Origin: Armatimonadota bacterium
GTDB taxonomy: Bacteria; Sysuimicrobiota; Sysuimicrobiia; Sysuimicrobiales; Kaftiobacteriaceae
NCBI GenBank assembly: GCA_031081675.1
Contig: JAVHLZ010000016.1
Location: 1-56,737 of the forward strand
DNA: 56,737 nucleotides
Direction of reading: 5' to 3'
The notes beneath the pieces were generated by a model. It made no database searches. It saw only the letters and a list, made by a program, of their open reading frames with translations, and was not told the DNA's origin. Of the stretch, positions 26,255 to 33,848 are shown one piece after another (the stretch's first letter is position 1; each line of letters starts with the position of its first letter). The position numbers and the translations under genes were made by a program.

Positions 26255-26283
26255 TTGACATACCATAGGGGGTATGGTATAAG
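26255..26283 (+). promoter_or_regulatory. Sigma70 promoter with embedded ATACC-type operator (hsp20)
   Basis: TTGACA (26255-26260), 17 bp, TATAAG (26278-26283), near consensus. The spacer is filled by the perfect palindrome ATACCATA-GGGGG-TATGGTAT (26260-26280), which resembles operators of the CsoR/CstR family. A repressor bound there would block RNA polymerase. The likely regulator is encoded at 28762. Confidence 0.85.
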
Positions 26284-26304
26284 CCCGGTGGGGAGGTGAT
26301 GGCC

Positions 26305-26769
26305 ATGGCGCTGCTGAGGATCCGGCGCGGGGAGCGCCTGTGGGACCCCTGGAGGGAGCTGGAGGAGCTTCGGCGCGAGGTGGAGCGGCTGTGGGGTGTC
26401 GGGCGGACCGGCCGCAGGTCCACTCCCGAGGCCGAAGCTCTCGTGCCCGCGGTGGACCTCTATGACGCGGGGGACTCCCTGGTGGCCCGGGTGGACCTGC
26501 CCGGGGTGCGGCCCGAGGACGTGGAGGTGACGGTGGACGAGGGGCGCCTGCTGTCCGTCAGGGCGTCCCGGAAGGCCGACGACGTACGCGAAGACGCCTA
26601 CCTGTGCTGCGAGCGTCCGGCCGGCAGGTTTGCCCGCACCATCGAACTGCCCGTGGAGGTCGACGCCGATCGGGTGAAGGCGTCCCTGAAGATGGGCGTG
26701 CTGGAGATCGTCCTGCCCAAGAGCCGGGAGCCGGCCCCGCGGAAGATCGCGGTGGCGGTGGAGCAGTGA
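26305..26769 (+). CDS. Small heat-shock protein (Hsp20/alpha-crystallin)
   Basis: 154 residues. N-terminal WDPWRELEELRREVERL, alpha-crystallin domain from about residue 45 (VPAVDLYDAGDSLVARVDLPGV) to KMGVLEIVLPK near 140. An ATP-independent holdase. ATG 26305 is set by the SD GGGAGGTG; GTG 26296 and ATG 26299 lie in or too near that SD. It begins a run with DUF2892, OsmC, methyltransferase and Usp genes. Its control by a CsoR/CstR-type operator, rather than a heat-shock element, is unusual and suggests induction by sulfur or thiol stress. Confidence 0.93.
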   Translation: MALLRIRRGERLWDPWRELEELRREVERLWGVGRTGRRSTPEAEALVPAVDLYDAGDSLVARVDLPGVRPEDVEVTVDEGRLLSVRASRKADDVREDAYLCCERPAGRFARTIELPVEVDADRVKASLKMGVLEIVLPKSREPAPRKIAVAVEQ

Positions 26770-26795
26770 CGTCGGGGGAGGGAGGAGGTGACGCC

Positions 26796-27017
26796 ATGCG
26801 CGGCTGTGTGGGCACCACCGACCGGGTGCTGCGGGTCCTGATCGGCATCGCGGCCCTGATCTGGGCGCTGGTCACGCGCGGCCAGATGGCGGCCGGGTGG
26901 ACCTACGTCCTGTACCTCATCGCAGCCATCGGCCTCATCACGGGCCTGGCCGGCCGCTGCCCGCTGTACGTGGCGCTGGGGGTCCAGACCTGCGGGACGG
27001 CCAGGAAGCAGACGTAG
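26796..27017 (+). CDS. DUF2892 small membrane protein
   Basis: 73 residues with two transmembrane helices and the family's pattern: N-terminal GTTDRVLRVLIGIAAL, then the helix ending ITGLAGRCPLY, and a second Cys in VQTCG. DUF2892 occurs alone or fused to rhodanese (as in YgaP) and is common in sulfur-handling loci, which matches this island. ATG 26796 follows GGAGGAGGTGACGCC. Likely co-transcribed with hsp20. Confidence 0.85.
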   Translation: MRGCVGTTDRVLRVLIGIAALIWALVTRGQMAAGWTYVLYLIAAIGLITGLAGRCPLYVALGVQTCGTARKQT

Positions 27018-27031
27018 ACGTGGGTGAGCAT

Positions 27032-27062
27032 CGCGGGGGCGAGCAACGGGCTCGCCCCCGCG
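27032..27062 (+). terminator. Intra-operon hairpin upstream of the OsmC gene
   Basis: A 13-bp perfect stem (CGCGGGGGCGAGC/GCTCGCCCCCGCG) with a 5-nt loop, directly before the SD of the gene at 27077. It may act as partial terminator, processing site or mRNA stabiliser between hsp20-DUF2892 and the downstream genes. Confidence 0.6.
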
Positions 27063-27076
27063 GGGAGGCAGCAGCC

Positions 27077-27562
27077 GTGAGCGAGCTCATGCGCGCGACC
27101 GTCCGCCTGCGGCAGGAAGACGGATACAGATTTCGGGCGGAGTACGACAGTCCCGCCCAGGGCGTGGTGGTCGACGAACCTCCTCCCCTGGGAGGCGGAG
27201 CCGGTCCCAACCCCGCCCGGATGCTGGCCACCGCGGTGGGCCACTGCCTGTCCAGCAGCCTGCTGTACTGCCTGCGCCGGGCGCGGGTCCCCGACCCGCG
27301 CGTGGAGACCACCGTGGACGTCGAGATCCGGCGCACCGAGAGCGGCCGCTGGAGGATCGCCGGCATTCGGGCCGCGCTGGACCTTTCATCGGTGCCCGCC
27401 GCCTGGCGGGCGGCGGTGGAGCGCTGCCGGGAGCTGTTTGAAGACTTCTGCATCGTCACGGCCAGCGTGCGCCGGGGAATTCCCGTGGACGTGACCGTGC
27501 GGGCAGGGGAGGCTGTTGTGGCCCCTGCTCCCGAGCCGGACACCCGGCCCGGGTCTCGGTGA
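27077..27562 (+). CDS. OsmC-like protein
   Basis: 161 residues. OsmC fold with N-terminal RLRQEDGYRFRAEYDS, the segment PNPARMLATAVGHCLSSSLLYCL carrying the first reactive Cys (plus one more), and FEDFCIVTASV with the second. This resembles the OsmC branch found with sulfur-transfer genes. GTG 27077 follows GGGGAGGCAGCAGCC. It sits between the DUF2892 gene and a methyltransferase; the next gene starts 6 bp after its stop. Probable hydroperoxide or persulfide reduction. Confidence 0.83.
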   Translation: MSELMRATVRLRQEDGYRFRAEYDSPAQGVVVDEPPPLGGGAGPNPARMLATAVGHCLSSSLLYCLRRARVPDPRVETTVDVEIRRTESGRWRIAGIRAALDLSSVPAAWRAAVERCRELFEDFCIVTASVRRGIPVDVTVRAGEAVVAPAPEPDTRPGSR

Positions 27563-27568
27563 AGGCGC

Positions 27569-28300
27569 ATGGGGCACGGTCTCCGCGGGGTCCGCGCCGG
27601 CAGGGACGCGGGGGATGTTCTGGCGACGCGGGGCGCCGGGGCCGCGGTGTTTGACGAGCTGGCCGAGCGCTATGACGCCTGGTACGACGGTCCGGTGGGC
27701 CGGGTCGTCTTTCCCCTGGAGGTGGAGGTCCTGCGGAGGCTGCTGGAGGGCCAGCCGCGCCCCTGGCTGGAGATAGGCGTGGGCAGTGGTCGGTTTGCCC
27801 GTGCGCTGGGTGTCGAGGTAGGGGTGGACCCGGCGCGGAGGCCGCTGCGGCGCGCCCGCCGTCGCGGCATCCGCGTCGTGCGAGCGGTCGGCGAGCGCCT
27901 TCCCTTCCCGGCGGCCACCTTCGGGGCCGTGCTGGCCGTCGTGACCCTCTGCTTTGTGGAGAAGCCTGTGGAAGTGCTGCGGGAGGCTCGACGGGTCCTG
28001 CGGCCGGACGGCGCGCTGGTTCTGGGGATGGTGTTCGCCGACAGCCCCTGGGGCGACTACTACCGGAGGCGCGGAGCGGCCGGGCACCCCTTTTACTCCG
28101 TGGCCCGGTTCCTGTCCCGGTCCGACCTCGCCGCTCTTCTCCGCCGGGCCGGATTTACCGTCGTGGCGGCGGCGTCCACCCTGCGGCAGCCCCCGACGGA
28201 GGCACCCCGACCCGAGCCCGTGGTGGAGGGAGACCCCCAGGACGCCGGCTTCTCGGGGTGGAAGGCCCTTCCCGTGCGCGTCACCGCGAACACTGGGTGA
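27569..28300 (+). CDS. Class I SAM-dependent methyltransferase
   Basis: 243 residues. An N-terminal helix (FDELAERYDAWYDGPVGR) typical of the Methyltransf_11 group, motif I LEIGVGSGRFARALG (about residue 68), the acidic end of strand 2 in VGVDPARR, and VLREARRVLRPDGALVLG as post-I region. Substrate not evident. ATG 27569 lies 6 bp after the OsmC stop; a Usp gene follows 17 bp later. UbiE-like quinone methylation is possible but not demonstrated. Confidence 0.85.
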   Translation: MGHGLRGVRAGRDAGDVLATRGAGAAVFDELAERYDAWYDGPVGRVVFPLEVEVLRRLLEGQPRPWLEIGVGSGRFARALGVEVGVDPARRPLRRARRRGIRVVRAVGERLPFPAATFGAVLAVVTLCFVEKPVEVLREARRVLRPDGALVLGMVFADSPWGDYYRRRGAAGHPFYSVARFLSRSDLAALLRRAGFTVVAAASTLRQPPTEAPRPEPVVEGDPQDAGFSGWKALPVRVTANTG

Positions 28301-28317
28301 GGGCGAGGAGGCCGGAG

Positions 28318-28737
28318 ATGCTGGCGACCATCCTGCTGGCCACGGACGGCTCGGCCCACGCCCGGCGGGCGACCCGCCTGGCGGCGGACCTGGCGCGCCG
28401 CTACGGAGCCCGGGTCATCGTGGTCACGGCCTTCGACCCCATCCCCCGGGACCTGGGCAGCCCCTACCAGGAGGACCTGATGGCGCGGCGGACGGCCTCC
28501 GCGGAGGCCGTCGCCAAAGACGCCGGGCGGGTGCTGGACGAGGTCGGGGTGAGCCACGAGGAGGAGGTCCTGGAGGGGCCGGCGGCCGACGCCATCCTGC
28601 GGGTCGCGCGGGTCCGGGGGTGCGACCTCATCGTCATGGGGTCCCGGGGTCTCAGCCCCCTGCGGGCCGCGATCCTGGGGTCGGTGAGTCAGCGGGTGGT
28701 GGCGGAAGCCCCCTGTCCCGTCCTGATCGTACACTGA
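28318..28737 (+). CDS. Universal stress protein (UspA family)
   Basis: 139 residues. N-terminal ILLATDGS and a complete ATP-loop signature, GSRGLSPLRAAILGS. ATG 28318 follows GAGGAGGCCGGAG. It is the last gene of the run starting at hsp20 and converges with the CstR-like gene. Slightly shorter than the three other Usp genes here. Confidence 0.92.
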   Translation: MLATILLATDGSAHARRATRLAADLARRYGARVIVVTAFDPIPRDLGSPYQEDLMARRTASAEAVAKDAGRVLDEVGVSHEEEVLEGPAADAILRVARVRGCDLIVMGSRGLSPLRAAILGSVSQRVVAEAPCPVLIVH

Positions 28738-28761
28738 CCCCCTCGCCCCGGGGCAGGAGTT

Positions 28762-29046
28762 CTACCGGAGCATGAGGAACGTCCGCTGGAGCTTGCGCAG
28801 CGCGCCCTGGGCCTGAGGCTTGCCGGCCACCTCCATCCGTACGCACTGCTCCAGGCCGGCGGCGATCAGGTCCATGGCCACCCGGTCCAGGGCCGCCCGG
28901 GTGGCCGCCACCTGCTGGGCGATGTCGGCGCAGTCGCGCCCTTCTTCCAGCATCCGCTGCAGTCCCCGGATCTGGCCCTCGATCCGGCGCAGCCGGGTCA
29001 GGATGGACGCGCGGGCCTCCGCGTCGATCTGCAGGGTCGCGGCCAT
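28762..29046 (-). CDS. cstR: CsoR/CstR-family repressor, CstR-like (persulfide sensing)
   Basis: 94 residues, DUF156 all-helical fold: LTRLRRIEGQIRGLQRMLEEGRDCADIAQQVAATRAAL... The two family cysteines are at about 39 and 68, spaced 29 as in CsoR and CstR. CsoR's Cu(I)-binding His four residues before the second Cys is Gly here, so Cu(I) sensing is unlikely, and a two-Cys CstR-type persulfide sensor fits. ATG 29046 is chosen because AGGAGG directly abuts the earlier ATG 29052. Downstream of the disulfide oxidoreductase in one operon. Candidate operators are at 26260, 29787 and 29922. Confidence 0.85.
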   Translation of the reverse strand: MAATLQIDAEARASILTRLRRIEGQIRGLQRMLEEGRDCADIAQQVAATRAALDRVAMDLIAAGLEQCVRMEVAGKPQAQGALRKLQRTFLMLR

Positions 29047-29057
29047 GGGCATCCTCC

Positions 29058-29759
29058 TCAGGACGTGACGTCGGCGGGCTCCGCCGGGTGCCCGCCGGCG
29101 GCGGCCAGCACGTAGTGGAGGAAGGCCTCTTCCGGAAGCGCCCCCTCAAAGCTCCACTCCTCGTTGATGACCACCTTGGGCACGCCGTACACGCCGTAGC
29201 GTTCGGCAAGGGCGGGGAATTCGTTGGCCTCGATGACGTCCGCCCGCACCCGGCGCGACTCCTGGGCCATGGCGTGGGCCAGCCGGGCCGTCCGGGGGCA
29301 GTAGGGGCAGGTGGGGGTCACAAAGACCTGGATGTGGACGTCCCCGGGCAGGTCCCGCAGCGCCTGCCGGGTCTGCGGCCGCAGACCGCTGTCGGCTCTC
29401 GACGCGGCCACGATGTCCTCGATCAGCACCCCGAATTCCAGTCCCGCCGGGATGCCGAAGTACCGCATCCGCGCCTGCCCGTCCCCGCCGATGAGGATGG
29501 CCGGGACCCGGTCCACCCCCGCGGCGGCCGCCTCGGCGGCGTCGGTGACGATGCTGCGGACCTGCAACCGGATGCGGGGGTCCAGGGCGGCCACCTCCTC
29601 CAGCAGGCGCTGGGTGGTCTCGCAGTACGGGCAGTCGGCGCCGGGCAGCGCCAGTCCGGCGGGCGAGGTGGTGAACAGGGTCACGGTCACCTCTCCGGCC
29701 AGGTCCCGGGCGAACCGGTCCCGCAGGGCCTGGACATCGCGGGCCTTCAGCAGGGGCAT
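29058..29759 (-). CDS. Protein disulfide oxidoreductase, tandem thioredoxin folds
   Basis: 233 residues: two glutaredoxin/thioredoxin units, each with a CPYC active site (Cys 43/46 in the first, 151/154 in the second) and a cis-Pro segment (VDRVPAILI; YGVPKVVIN). This is the PDO architecture of thermophilic archaea and bacteria, cytoplasmic and usually linked to thioredoxin reductase. No signal peptide. ATG 29759 follows GAGGAGGGAGACC. First gene of the operon with the CstR-like repressor; a role in reducing protein persulfides is inferred from that. Confidence 0.9.
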   Translation of the reverse strand: MPLLKARDVQALRDRFARDLAGEVTVTLFTTSPAGLALPGADCPYCETTQRLLEEVAALDPRIRLQVRSIVTDAAEAAAAGVDRVPAILIGGDGQARMRYFGIPAGLEFGVLIEDIVAASRADSGLRPQTRQALRDLPGDVHIQVFVTPTCPYCPRTARLAHAMAQESRRVRADVIEANEFPALAERYGVYGVPKVVINEEWSFEGALPEEAFLHYVLAAAGGHPAEPADVTS

Positions 29760-29786
29760 GATGGTCTCCCTCCTCTGGGTTGATAC

Positions 29787-29830
29787 AATACTCCGTAGGG
29801 TATTATGCCTCGGGGGGAGGCCGCCGTCAA
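29787..29830 (-). promoter_or_regulatory. Sigma70 promoter plus CstR-like operator (PDO-cstR operon)
   Basis: Minus strand TTGACG (29830-29825), 17 bp, CATAAT (29807-29802). Overlapping the -10 and extending to 29787 is the imperfect palindrome AATACCCTACGGAGTATT, of the same ATACC/GGTAT type as at hsp20. This implies autoregulation. Confidence 0.8.
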
Positions 29831-29869
29831 TCCCGGGGTGCCCCCTCGGGCAGCCGCCCGAGGGAGCCC

Positions 29870-29941
29870 ATCCGGCGCGGGCCCGATTGCCCGCGGGTCG
29901 GCCGCCCCCTACAGTGAAGGTGGATACCCTCCAGGGTATCC
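29870..29941 (+). promoter_or_regulatory. Dyad-class promoter plus CstR-like operator (dsrE operon)
   Basis: ATCCG (29870-29874), N8, CCGATTG (29883-29889), 20 bp, TACAGT (29910-29915). Read as -35/-10 it is TTGCCC-17-TACAGT. The perfect palindrome GGATACCCTCCAGGGTATCC (29922-29941) covers the predicted start. Global activation and local repression thus meet at one promoter. Confidence 0.8.
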
Positions 29942-29959: not shown

Positions 29960-30382
29960 ATGGCGGACCGCCTGTCGATGATCGTGTTCTCGGGCACGGT
30001 GGACAAGCTGTTCCCGGTGGCCATCCTGGCCTCGGGGGCGGTGGCGATGGAGCAGGAGGTGGACATCTTCCTGACCTTCTGGGGTCTGGAGGCGTTCCGG
30101 CGGGGGGCGCCCCAGCAGAACATGCGGTTCAGCAAGGACTTCGAAGACAAGGCCCCGGCCATGCTGGCGCTGATGCAGCAGAAGCAGGTGCCGTCGTGGT
30201 ACGAGACCCTGCGCAAGGCCAAGGAGCTGGGCAACGGCAAGCTGCGCATCCACGCCTGCGCCATGACCATGGACCTGATGGGTCTGACCAAGGACGACCT
30301 GGACCCCATCGTGGACGACGTGGTGGGCGTGGGCGAGTTCGTGGAGGAAGCCCAGAAGGGGAAGATCACCCTGTTCATCTGA
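29960..30382 (+). CDS. DsrE2-like sulfur carrier protein
   Basis: 140 residues. DsrE/DsrF/DrsH-like (DsrE2 type) with N-terminal MIVFSGTVDKLFPVAILASGA and the conserved Cys in IHACAMTMDLMG near residue 100. Members bind and pass on persulfide sulfur in the cytoplasm, working with TusA and rhodanese. ATG 29960 follows GGAGGTGACGGCG. First gene of the dsrE-tusA-SQR-tusA-like operon. Confidence 0.88.
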   Translation: MADRLSMIVFSGTVDKLFPVAILASGAVAMEQEVDIFLTFWGLEAFRRGAPQQNMRFSKDFEDKAPAMLALMQQKQVPSWYETLRKAKELGNGKLRIHACAMTMDLMGLTKDDLDPIVDDVVGVGEFVEEAQKGKITLFI

Positions 30383-30401: not shown

Positions 30402-30644
30402 ATGGCGGTGGAGCTGAAGGTCGATCGCACCATCGACGCCCGGGGCAGCTACTGCCCGGGGCCGCTGATGGAGCTGATCCGGGCCATCCGGGAGGCGCGG
30501 GTGGGCGAGGTCATCGAGGTCCTCAGCAGCGACAGCGGCAGCAAGCGCGACATCCCCAAGTGGTGCCAGAAGGCGGGCCACGAGCTGCTGCGGGTCGTGG
30601 ACGAGCAGGGCTTCGCCCGCTTCATCGTGCGCAAGGCCCGGTAG
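30402..30644 (+). CDS. tusA: TusA sulfur carrier
   Basis: 80 residues of the TusA fold. The persulfide-carrying Cys is in the signature YCPGPLMEL (CPxP); a second Cys is in IPKWCQKAG. ATG 30402 follows GGGAGGGAGACCG, 19 bp after dsrE. TusA, DsrE and a flavoprotein in this order are the classic cytoplasmic sulfur-trafficking set of sulfur oxidisers and of detoxification loci. Confidence 0.93.
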   Translation: MAVELKVDRTIDARGSYCPGPLMELIRAIREARVGEVIEVLSSDSGSKRDIPKWCQKAGHELLRVVDEQGFARFIVRKAR

Positions 30645-30656
30645 GGAGGGAGCGCC

Positions 30657-31772
30657 GTGAGCCGGCGGGTCCTGGTGGTGGGCGGAGGAACCGGCGGGAG
30701 CATCGTCGCCAACCTGCTCGCCCGGCGGCCGGACATGGAGGTGACGCTGGTCAGCCGGGAGGCCACGCACCTCTACCAGCCGGGGCTGCTGTACGTGCCG
30801 TTCGGGTGGGTGTCGCCCGAGCAGCTGGTCCGGCCCCAGCGGCCGCTGCTGCACCCGCGGATCCGCTTCCTCCACGACGAGGTCCGGGAGATCGATCCGG
30901 TCCGGCGTGTCGCCCGGCTGTCCGCCGGCGAGCTGGCCGCCGACGCCGTGGTCCTGGCCACCGGCGCCCGCCTGGCGCCCGAGGAGGTCCCGGGGATGGA
31001 AGACGCCCACCACTTCTACAGCCCGGAGGCGGCGGTGCGCCTGCGGGAAACCCTGGCCCGCTTGGAGGGCGGCCACATCGTGGTGGGGGTGGCCGGCGTC
31101 CCCTACAAGTGCCCGCCGGCCCCTCTGGAGTTCGCGCTGCTGCTGGAGTGGGAGCTCCGGCGCACCGGCCGCCGCAGCCGCACCCGCATCACCTACGTCT
31201 CGCCCCTGCCCCGGGCCTTCCCCATCGAGTCGGTGGCCGACGTGGTGGAACCGATCATGGCCAGGCGCGGGATCGAGCTGGTGACCTTCTTCAACGTGGA
31301 GCGGGTGGACCCGGCCCGGAAGACGGTCTCTTCCCTGGAGGGGGAGGAGATTCCCTACGATGTGCTGGTCCTGATCCCGCCGCACCGGGGCACCGCGCCG
31401 GTCGCCCTGGACGGCATCGCCGACCGGGGAGGGTGGATCCGCACCGACCGGGAGACCCTGCAGGTCGCCGGCTACGACCACGTCTACGCCATCGGTGACG
31501 CCACCGACCTGCCGGTGAGCAAGAGCGGCTCGGCGGCCCACTACCAGGCCCGGACGGTGGCCGAGCGCATCGCCGCGGGTAACCCCGGCCGCGACATCCG
31601 GTACACGGGGAAGGTGATGTGCTTCCTGGAGACCGGTGAGCGCCGGGCCACCCTGCTGCGCTTTGACTACCAGCACCCCCCGCGCCCGGCTCCTCCCAAC
31701 CCGGTGGCCTTCGCCCTCAAGCGGTTGTTCAACCGGGTCTACTGGGCGCTGGTTCCGACAGGACGCGTGTAA
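30657..31772 (+). CDS. Sulfide:quinone oxidoreductase-like flavoprotein
   Basis: 371 residues. FAD-binding VVGGGTGGSIVANLLARR at the N-terminus, ATGARL near 100, and the second FAD segment YAIGDATDLP near 280. Cys 152 (PYKCPPAPLE) and Cys 322 (KVMCFLETG) occupy the positions of the redox pair of SQR/flavocytochrome-like proteins. The C-terminus (FNRVYWALVPTGRV) is hydrophobic enough for monotopic membrane contact. GTG 30657 has a GGGAGGGAGCGCC SD. Most likely oxidises sulfide or persulfide to the quinone pool. Confidence 0.85.
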   Translation: MSRRVLVVGGGTGGSIVANLLARRPDMEVTLVSREATHLYQPGLLYVPFGWVSPEQLVRPQRPLLHPRIRFLHDEVREIDPVRRVARLSAGELAADAVVLATGARLAPEEVPGMEDAHHFYSPEAAVRLRETLARLEGGHIVVGVAGVPYKCPPAPLEFALLLEWELRRTGRRSRTRITYVSPLPRAFPIESVADVVEPIMARRGIELVTFFNVERVDPARKTVSSLEGEEIPYDVLVLIPPHRGTAPVALDGIADRGGWIRTDRETLQVAGYDHVYAIGDATDLPVSKSGSAAHYQARTVAERIAAGNPGRDIRYTGKVMCFLETGERRATLLRFDYQHPPRPAPPNPVAFALKRLFNRVYWALVPTGRV

Positions 31773-31785
31773 AGGAGGACCCGCC

Positions 31786-32040
31786 GTGACCACGTCGCCG
31801 CCTGCCCCCTCCGGGGAGACCTGGGTTGTGGATGCCACCGTGGGGACCTGCGGTCCGTTCTGGGACCTGTTGCGGGTGATGGACCTGTCCAAGCCCGGCG
31901 ACATCATCGACCTGCGGTGCCGTCAGGTGGAAGAGGTGATGCGCTACGCCTACCTGCTGGTGCGCGCCGCCGGGGGCGAGCTGGTCCGCCTGGAGGTGGA
32001 GGACGGAGTCGCCCACCTGGTGATCCGCAAGGTGCGGTAA
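31786..32040 (+). CDS. TusA-like protein lacking the CPxP motif
   Basis: 84 residues. VVDATVGTCGPFWDLLRVM aligns with the TusA strand-helix start, but CPxP is replaced by CGPF; the Cys is kept. The remainder (VRLEVEDGVAHLVIRKVR) follows the TusA pattern. A second internal Cys is in IDLRCRQVEE. GTG 31786 follows AAAGGAGGACCCGCC. Last gene of the sulfur operon. Either a divergent sulfur carrier or an SQR accessory protein. Confidence 0.7.
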   Translation: MTTSPPAPSGETWVVDATVGTCGPFWDLLRVMDLSKPGDIIDLRCRQVEEVMRYAYLLVRAAGGELVRLEVEDGVAHLVIRKVR

Positions 32041-32104: not shown

Positions 32105-32542
32105 CTACTTCTCCATCGGGAAGTTCTGCCGCTCCCACTCGTACATCCCGAAGGCCAGGTCCTTGACGTTGGTCCACCCCAGGATGCCCAGGGCCATGGT
32201 CACGTACGCGGCCCGCATGCCCGACCGGCACACCACCACGATCAGCGCGTCCTTCGCCGGCAGCCTGCCCAGGTTCTGGGCGATGGTGCGGATGGGGATG
32301 TTCACGGCGCCGGGGATGTGGCCGGCGGCGAACTCCTCGGGCTGGCGGACGTCGAGGATGAACGGCTTCTCCCCGGCGTCCAGCCGGGCCTTCAGGGCCG
32401 GGGCGGCGATGGCGTTGTAGTCCGCCGCGATGTTGGTCAGGTAGTCCAGCACGGCCTGCTGGACGGCGGGCGCCTGGGCGACCGCCGGCGCCGTGGACGC
32501 CAGCGTCACCGCCACCAGCACGGCCAGAGCGAGCCTCGTCAT
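32105..32542 (-). CDS. Secreted rhodanese-domain protein
   Basis: 145 residues: Sec signal peptide (about 1-23, ending PAVAQA), then one rhodanese domain with FILDVRQPEEFAAGHIPGAVN and the active-site loop VVCRSGMRA, whose Cys carries persulfide. Periplasmic sulfurtransfer. It follows the 11-heme cytochrome by 13 bp on the same strand, so both products act outside the membrane. Its position opposite the cytoplasmic sulfur operon suggests a matching periplasmic arm. Confidence 0.9.
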   Translation of the reverse strand: MTRLALAVLVAVTLASTAPAVAQAPAVQQAVLDYLTNIAADYNAIAAPALKARLDAGEKPFILDVRQPEEFAAGHIPGAVNIPIRTIAQNLGRLPAKDALIVVVCRSGMRAAYVTMALGILGWTNVKDLAFGMYEWERQNFPMEK

Positions 32543-32555
32543 GTTCCTCCCCCCT

Positions 32556-33848
32556 TTATCGGTCCGGCAACGGCAGGGGCGGCCCGGTCACCACCCGGCC
32601 GTTGGCCTGGGAATCCTGTGGGTCCAGATCCTGCAGGCGCAGGAACAGCGACGGGGTGTTGTGGCAGCTCCCGCACGTCCGGCTGCGAGCCGTCACCCGC
32701 TGGATGGTGTGCGGGGTCGCCGCCTTCCACGTAGGGATGCGGTCGAAGTTGGCCAGCGCGCCGGCCAGGCCCGTCGGCCGGTCCAGCATCTCCCGGGTGG
32801 TGGGCACGTGGCGGAGCAGGACGTAGGCGGAGGGCAGCTCCGGCCGGACGTTGCGACCGATCTTCAGCATCGGCCTCGACGTCGCCCCGCGCCCAGGGTG
32901 ACAGCCGAAGCAGCTCTTGGCGATGCCTCCGTGGCAGACCTGGCAGGCCAGCCGGGTGCCGTGGACGGTGTGGACCCGCAGCCCGCGTGCGCCCGGAGCC
33001 GCCGAGGGATGGCACGACGTGCACGCCGGGCGGGTGGAGACCGCGTAGCGGGTGGCCGCGGTGGCCTCCCCCTGGCCGTGCAGCTGCGCGCCCGTGTGGC
33101 AGGACAGGCACGTCATCTTCGCCCTGCTGAAGTGGACGTCCGCCGGGAATCCCTCGTACTGGCCGGTGAACTCCGGCCAGACCCGCCCGCTGTGACAGCC
33201 TGCGCAGGTGGCCTCCACGGGAGGGGTGCGGACGAACAGGTGTCCGGCCAGCAACCCGCCCAGCAGGGTGGGCGGCTGGGGCCGGTAGGGAGGACGGCTC
33301 ACATGGCAGTCTCCGCAGGTGGCGTGGCAGGACCGGCACGACGCCCGGAAGGCAGGTGTCACCGGGCCCCACCGCACGGGTCCGGTCAGGGCGCGCAGGC
33401 CGGTCTCCATGCCCCGGGCGGTGAAGTGCAGGCTGCGGGTGAAGGTCGCCGCGACATCCGGGTGGCAGCCTCCACACGGTTTCAGCGGATCGTCGGACGG
33501 GCGGGAGATCAGGCCGCGGTGGGCCAGCGCCGGATCGGACGCCGACGGATCGCCCCCGTGGCAGGTGACGCACCCCAGGCGGCCGTGGGTGGTCTGAAGA
33601 AACCGCCGGTCCACCAGCTTCCGCTCGTAGTCCGCCCCCGCCGGGGGCAGGGGGACGGCTCAGCCCTCGCCCTCAGCGGGCGGCGGCGGCAGTGGCCGGA
33701 CCAGCGGTTCCAGCGCCTGCCGGCTGGTGTGGCAGCTCACGCAGGAACTGCCGTCAGCGGAAGCGGCCGGTGACGCGGGACGCAGCCCCGTCATGCCCAG
33801 CGCCAGCCCCGCCGCGGCCAGCCCACCGACGATCAGGAGCCTCCTCAT
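32556..33848 (-). CDS. 11-heme c-type cytochrome, interrupted by an in-frame TGA
   Basis: One continuous frame of 431 codons apart from TGA at 33662-33660. Before it: signal peptide-like MRRLLIVGGLAAAG... and one CxxCH (CVSCH). After it: LPPAGADYERKLVDRRF and ten more CxxCH motifs. Both halves are in the same frame and join at a Pro-rich linker, so this is a single gene; the part after the stop has no good SD of its own (GTG 33614 is the only start offered). Nonsense mutation, base error or TGA recoding are possible. Periplasmic electron transfer is expected. ATG 33848 is nearly leaderless behind its promoter. Confidence 0.75.

Follow-up and report, generated by a model that had tools for sequence, protein, structure and literature searches.

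The window studied here, a stretch of 56,737 nucleotides from an Armatimonadota bacterium (assembly GCA_031081675.1, contig JAVHLZ010000016.1, positions 1 to 56,737), encodes a DUF156 protein that is probably a CstR-type repressor, released by persulfide, of three operons that it would control through three operators. An earlier reading of this DNA (the sequence-only reading) had proposed a persulfide regulon, and of this proposal the linkage stands: phylogenetic footprinting and genome-wide co-occurrence support that operators, repressor and regulated genes are one unit, and the sites, their conservation and their tie to this protein and not to a copper CsoR are likewise supported at the level of sequence. 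DNA binding and repression by the protein, and persulfide as its effector in preference to copper or disulfide stress, are predicted by analogy with characterized systems. The genes concerned are indeed of persulfide-handling types (DsrE, TusA, an SQR-like protein and a disulfide oxidoreductase), to which relatives add SQR and a CoA-disulfide reductase.

Operators and promoters in the window

The three palindromes previously noticed are all exact in the sequence (Table 1), and two further claims were borne out: TTGACA and TATAAG flank operator 1 at hsp20, and operator 2 overlaps the -10 of a minus-strand promoter (29830-29802) of the genes for a protein disulfide oxidoreductase (PDO) and the repressor. 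Since our promoter scanner requires T at the final -10 position, the TATAAG of hsp20 was assigned by eye; the same TTGAC-operator-TATAA arrangement is repeated in the genomes G028, G031 and G025. Operator 3 lies immediately upstream of the dsrE ribosome-binding site, and the dsrE promoter is weak. The 8-5-8 palindrome described at hsp20 can be kept as an operator unit only in part: its final half-site runs into the -10, but its 16-bp core is conserved. Operator 2, first given as 29787-29804 (minus strand AATACCCTACGGAGTATT), reaches 29783 and includes an additional, fourth GTA half-site at 29783-29787. A fourth half-site beyond the 16-bp core is independently retained in the pdo class and in some dsrE sites.

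Pattern searches of the 2.29 Mb genome indicate how rare these sites are. ATACCN6GGTAT occurs three times, twice in the window, while the reversed-pattern control gave none; at one mismatch there are 12 sites, operator 2 included, versus 2 for the control. For the pattern ATACYCYNNRGRGTAT, operators 2 and 3 are the sole two perfect matches in the genome and operator 1 is one of two sites with a single mismatch. A fourth genome site (C15:6231, ATACCGGTCACGGTAT) was not counted, as it does not fit the G-tract consensus.

Conservation of the operator in relatives

Alignment of 28 sites gave the refined operator TAC-NN-TA(C/G)-NNN-GTA-NN-GTA, in which TACNNTAC half-sites form an inverted repeat around a 3-bp centre. 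All 28 share the outer TAC and the inner GTA, but this core was the basis on which they had been selected. The fourth half-site played no part in the selection and is exact in 10/10 sites of the hsp class, 7/8 of the pdo class and 3/9 of the dsrE class, where base composition would predict about 1% per site; since it coincides with the -10 in the hsp class, the pdo class gives the cleaner evidence.

The operator precedes pdo in 7/9 orthologs of the Cys-type PDO; in seven genomes, that of the window among them, its distance from the gene is 34-44 nt. It was also found ahead of the hsp20/ygaP/osmC operon, which runs as ygaP/osmC or as hsp20-ygaP-osmC, in eight of nine cases at a score of at least 12 (the ninth, in G011, scores 11), and ahead of dsrE for 9 of the 11 DsrE homologs from genomes with CstR. 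In these searches the queries for hsp20 and dsrE start one codon late, which shifts the reported distances by 3 nt only. None of 31 control regions from CstR-less genomes carries the operator, it being noted that some control genomes from outside the order are classed as CstR-less solely by the absence of a detected ortholog. No operator stands ahead of the PDO paralogs with an in-frame TGA, even where the genome bears CstR, nor ahead of the OsmC gene of G023 (58% identity), a genome without CstR.

The repressor and its copper paralog

The protein belongs to the CsoR/RcnR family (PF02583, 85.7 bits against a curated cut-off of 22.8). Its motif RDC...AAGLEQC contains both Cys and has Gly in place of the Cu-binding His, as the sequence-only reading had stated, and thus lacks the Cys-His-Cys ligand set for Cu(I). 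The pattern holds in the orthologs: among 18 relatives inspected all retain both Cys and none has the His, the arrangement being Cys-(Gly/Ser/Asn)-Cys. A further 16 genomes of the order have orthologs (51-81% identity, with one fragment at 89%), and a more distant sister group, also without the His, occurs in 3 genomes, 1 of which carries an ortholog as well.

The second DUF156 protein of the genome, on contig C9, is a Cys-His-Cys (C-H-C) CsoR followed by an HMA P-type ATPase resembling CopA, and no site of the ATAC-N8-GTAT type was found at this locus. In the tree the window orthologs (98/86) are separate from the C-H-C clade that contains this CsoR, which supports, from sequence, that the copper role is filled by a separate paralog beside copA. 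The closest match of the window repressor among solved structures is 7mq1, at 53 bits (low sequence similarity); 7mq2, which has the same sequence as 7mq1, is given as CstR in PMC9774590.

Co-occurrence of motif and repressor

We scanned 44 whole genomes with the 19-bp motif TACNNTANNNNGTANNGTA, counting as CstR-positive those with an ortholog or close relative of the window DUF156 protein. The motif was found in 15 genomes, 15/19 CstR-positive and 0/25 CstR-negative ones (Fisher 1.7e-8, a descriptive value because relatives are not independent), and the hits of the reversed control were scattered. It is absent from genomes having only a C-H-C CsoR (e.g. G023, G005 and G015). An operator of the type bound by TTHA1953 of Thermus thermophilus, with a 4-base centre (TACNNTAC-N4-GTANNGTA), was rejected for this repressor: the gap here is 3 bp, and the 4-base pattern, present in 5 genomes of which only 1 bears CstR, and with no place listed on a cstR contig, has no link to the protein.

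Operators also occur outside the cstR locus, about 90 bp ahead of an SQR-like gene in G022, with a like arrangement in G025, G028 and G031. In G012 (C98, L297 2368-4442) an operator precedes a group of genes for a YgaP-like transmembrane (TM) protein, a second DUF156 protein without the His (C-L-C) and a CoA-disulfide reductase homolog, which may form another persulfide operon under a repressor of its own.

Two other candidates were set aside. A palindrome, ATACCCTTGCGGGTAT or ATACCCTCACGGGTAT, is conserved in genomes of family f7 (e.g. G035:C1:27448 and G033:C45:126314), and it was not counted as an operator because genomes lacking the repressor have it too. A site at L296 (G024) was not counted either; it adjoins a doubtful composite open reading frame.

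Alternative explanations

That all three sites resemble CsoR/CstR operators, as previously claimed, is correct, and their core matches that bound by ScCsoR, the sulfane-sulfur sensor of Streptomyces coelicolor; however, operator resemblance alone cannot tell copper from persulfide sensors. Operators of Cu-CsoR are likewise TAC/GTA pseudopalindromes with G-tracts (PMC3902906), as exemplified by ATACCtataGGGGGTAC at copA of S. aureus (PMC5947656); on a copper reading the window protein would bind Cu(I) or the C9 CsoR would act at these sites. We reject both forms of copper regulation, which are very improbable given that the His ligand is missing in every relative inspected, that the C9 CsoR lies beside a copA of its own where no site of this type was found, and that the CsoR-only genomes lack the 19-bp motif. 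In addition, the gap between TAC and GTA is 8 bp, as in ScCsoR (PMC7533328), and not 9 bp as in Cu-CsoR sites (PMC3902906), and the regulon contains no copper gene. A coincidence of promoter sequence, or the sites of another regulator, would be still harder to credit: part of the symmetry of operator 1 may be promoter, as its last half-site overlaps the -10, but 7 of 8 pdo promoters keep the fourth half-site downstream of the -10, and motif presence follows the repressor across the genomes scanned.

Less improbable, though still unlikely, is that the same repressor, operators and regulon respond to general thiol oxidation, by a disulfide between the two Cys, as proposed for TTHA1953. This two-Cys protein uses TACNNTACNNNNGTANNGTA and comes off DNA when a disulfide forms, whereas NaHS does not release it (PMC10318464), and the inducer here could therefore be thiol oxidation; disulfide oxidoreductase, OsmC and Hsp20 as targets would suit oxidative stress. 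The DsrE2, TusA and SQR-like targets, together with SQR and CoA-disulfide reductase in relatives, indicate sulfane sulfur instead, and the Thermus negative is weak because NaHS is not a sulfane-sulfur donor.

The behaviour of TTHA1953 is one of several points that weigh against a CstR-type, persulfide-released repressor. The relatives are non-independent samples, and some of the same sites served to refine the consensus; 4 CstR-positive genomes lack the full 19-bp motif, although two-half-site operators ahead of dsrE are kept; and the tree joins the window clade to the solved CstR 7mq1 at only 76/73, with a long branch and a short protein.

Proposed mechanism

In its reduced form the repressor would shut off the hsp20-ygaP-osmC-methyltransferase-usp operon, its own operon with PDO, and dsrE-tusA-SQR with the small gene that follows. 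The operators overlap the promoter (sites 1 and 2) or the probable start region (site 3), so that the bound protein would block RNA polymerase. Sulfide oxidation would raise persulfide or polysulfide, and Cys41 and Cys70 (96-aa reading) may then be joined by di- or polysulfide bridges between protomers, which would lower DNA affinity and release the repressor. The DsrE and TusA carriers, the SQR-like enzyme, the thiol-disulfide reductase and the protein-protection genes would be made until sulfane sulfur is cleared. Control of Hsp20 and OsmC would fit a role in protecting proteins from persulfidation. Ohr is a member of the OsmC family. Sulfane sulfur induces ohr, a thiol peroxidase gene, in Pseudomonas (PMC9495516).

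A broader proposal, which to us seems evenly poised, is that of a lineage-wide persulfide-stress regulon, composed of the CstR-like protein, a four-half-site operator (TACNNTAC-N3-GTANNGTA), sulfur-transfer enzymes and a protein-protection module (Hsp20, OsmC, YgaP-TM and Usp), in which persulfidation would be met as a proteotoxic stress.

Genes of the locus

Short intergenic gaps suggest three operons with one operator ahead of each, hsp20-ygaP-osmC-methyltransferase-usp, PDO-cstR and dsrE-tusA-SQR-like-small gene (Table 1). In several relatives osmC directly precedes cstR, so the methyltransferase of the hsp20-osmC operon may be a local addition.

Table 1. Positions of the predicted operators, promoters and genes in the window
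Feature	Position	Strand	Remarks
Operator 1	26260..26280	+	ATACCATAGGGGGTATGGTAT; 19-bp core 26261-26279 TAC-CA-TAG-GGG-GTA-TG-GTA; occupies the -35/-10 spacer
Operator 2	29783..29804	-	19-bp core 29784-29802, minus strand TAC-CC-TAC-GGA-GTA-TT-GTA; predicted autoregulatory; conserved in orthologous pdo promoters
Operator 3	29922..29941	+	GGATACCCTCCAGGGTATCC; core ATACCCTCCAGGGTAT 29924-29939; two half-sites only
Predicted promoter of the hsp20 operon	26255..26283	+	TTGACA 26255-26260, 17 nt, TATAAG 26278-26283; read by eye
Predicted pdo-cstR promoter	29802..29830	-	TTGACG-17-CATAAT; promoter scan 1 found vs 0.1 expected
hsp20, small heat-shock protein, first of five-gene operon	26299..26769	+	PF00011 E 3.6e-18; start codon uncertain (26296/26299/26305)
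YgaP-like TM protein (DUF2892)	26796..27017	+	PF11127 E 3.8e-15
OsmC-family protein	27077..27562	+	PF02566 E 7e-12
Class I S-adenosylmethionine (SAM) methyltransferase	27569..28300	+	PF08241 E 3.4e-17
Universal stress protein (usp)	28321..28737	+	PF00582 E 4.4e-36
CstR-like DUF156 repressor (predicted), Cys-Gly-Cys	28762..29052	-	PF02583 E 2.8e-24; orthologs and tree
PDO, all-Cys form, co-directional with cstR	29058..29759	-	TIGR02187 241.8 bits, cut-off 185
DsrE2-like sulfur carrier	29960..30382	+	PF13686 E 1.5e-25; NF047629 50 bits, under cut-off 210
TusA sulfur carrier	30402..30644	+	PF01206 E 2e-24
SQR-like flavoprotein (type III-like)	30657..31772	+	PF07992, PF21706; NF049943 322 bits, under cut-off 525
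Second small, possibly TusA-like protein	31786..32040	+	no family match; tblastn 77% in L173; conserved after SQR in G012

The PDO linked to cstR is the all-Cys form, unlike the PDOs with an in-frame TGA (likely selenocysteine; TIGR02187 PDO_seleno_TRX) that occur in most genomes of the order (e.g. G000:C20:20086-20766, L243-L261). Adjoining the regulon, at 32105-33614 on the minus strand, are genes for which no operator of their own was seen, one encoding a single-domain rhodanese whose N-terminus is signal-like and the other a protein with many CxxCH haem motifs; in G017, G004 and G010, too, cstR has a rhodanese homolog nearby.

Meaning for the lineage

These predictions would extend persulfide-sensing control by the CsoR family to an uncultured lineage, the family of Armatimonadetes bacterium RBG_19FT_COMBO_69_19, and the computed operator could be used for annotating sulfur regulons in its genomes. 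We take the lineage to be CSP1-3/Sysuimicrobiota. Nearly all of CSP1-3/Sysuimicrobiota carry sqr (PMC11604079). Persulfide sensing would also gain a tie to OsmC and a small heat-shock protein, a connection not found in the literature searched. The paralog pair, CsoR by copA and the CstR-like protein by dsrE-tusA, offers a test case for 1-bp operator spacing and His loss separating copper from sulfur signalling.

Comparison with known systems

ScCsoR (SCO0620) binds ATACCn6GGTAT and is released from DNA by polysulfide through Cys37 and Cys66 (PMC7533328). It is a DUF156 repressor whose two Cys are required for sensing, and the TAC-N8-GTA core is common to both systems. It regulates its own gene and sulfane-sulfur genes (PMC7533328), for which a parallel is predicted in the window, but its targets are a persulfide dioxygenase, a rhodanese and a sulfite exporter, whereas here they are DsrE, TusA, SQR-like, disulfide oxidoreductase, Hsp20 and OsmC, and many operators have four half-sites. 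TTHA1953 shares the TACNNTAC / GTANNGTA half-site syntax, sulfur-oxidation targets and two Cys (PMC10318464), but its central gap is 4 bp and not 3 bp, and its regulon, which includes sox genes, lies far from its gene, while here it is local.

CstR (Staphylococcus aureus, Enterococcus faecalis and Streptococcus pneumoniae; PDB 7mq1-3) likewise has two Cys and no Cu-binding His, coexists with a paralogous Cu-CsoR in its genome and has sulfurtransferase, SQR and CoA-persulfide-reductase targets (PMC5480029, PMC9405070), the CoA-persulfide reductase being under CstR control in Enterococcus (PMC9405070). It differs in its single cst operon against three promoters here, where genes of the cstA/cstB type were not seen. 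YrkD of Bacillus licheniformis, CstR-like and autoregulated, represses a cluster of DsrE, TusA, rhodanese, thioredoxin-like, SQR and PDO genes, and elemental sulfur abolishes its binding (PMC9918477); it has no Hsp20/OsmC operon, and additional control by NreBC is found there. It is well supported that the switch is of a known kind (CstR, ScCsoR, YrkD), and that the window presents a new case of it, with a modified operator and the unusual extra target Hsp20/OsmC.

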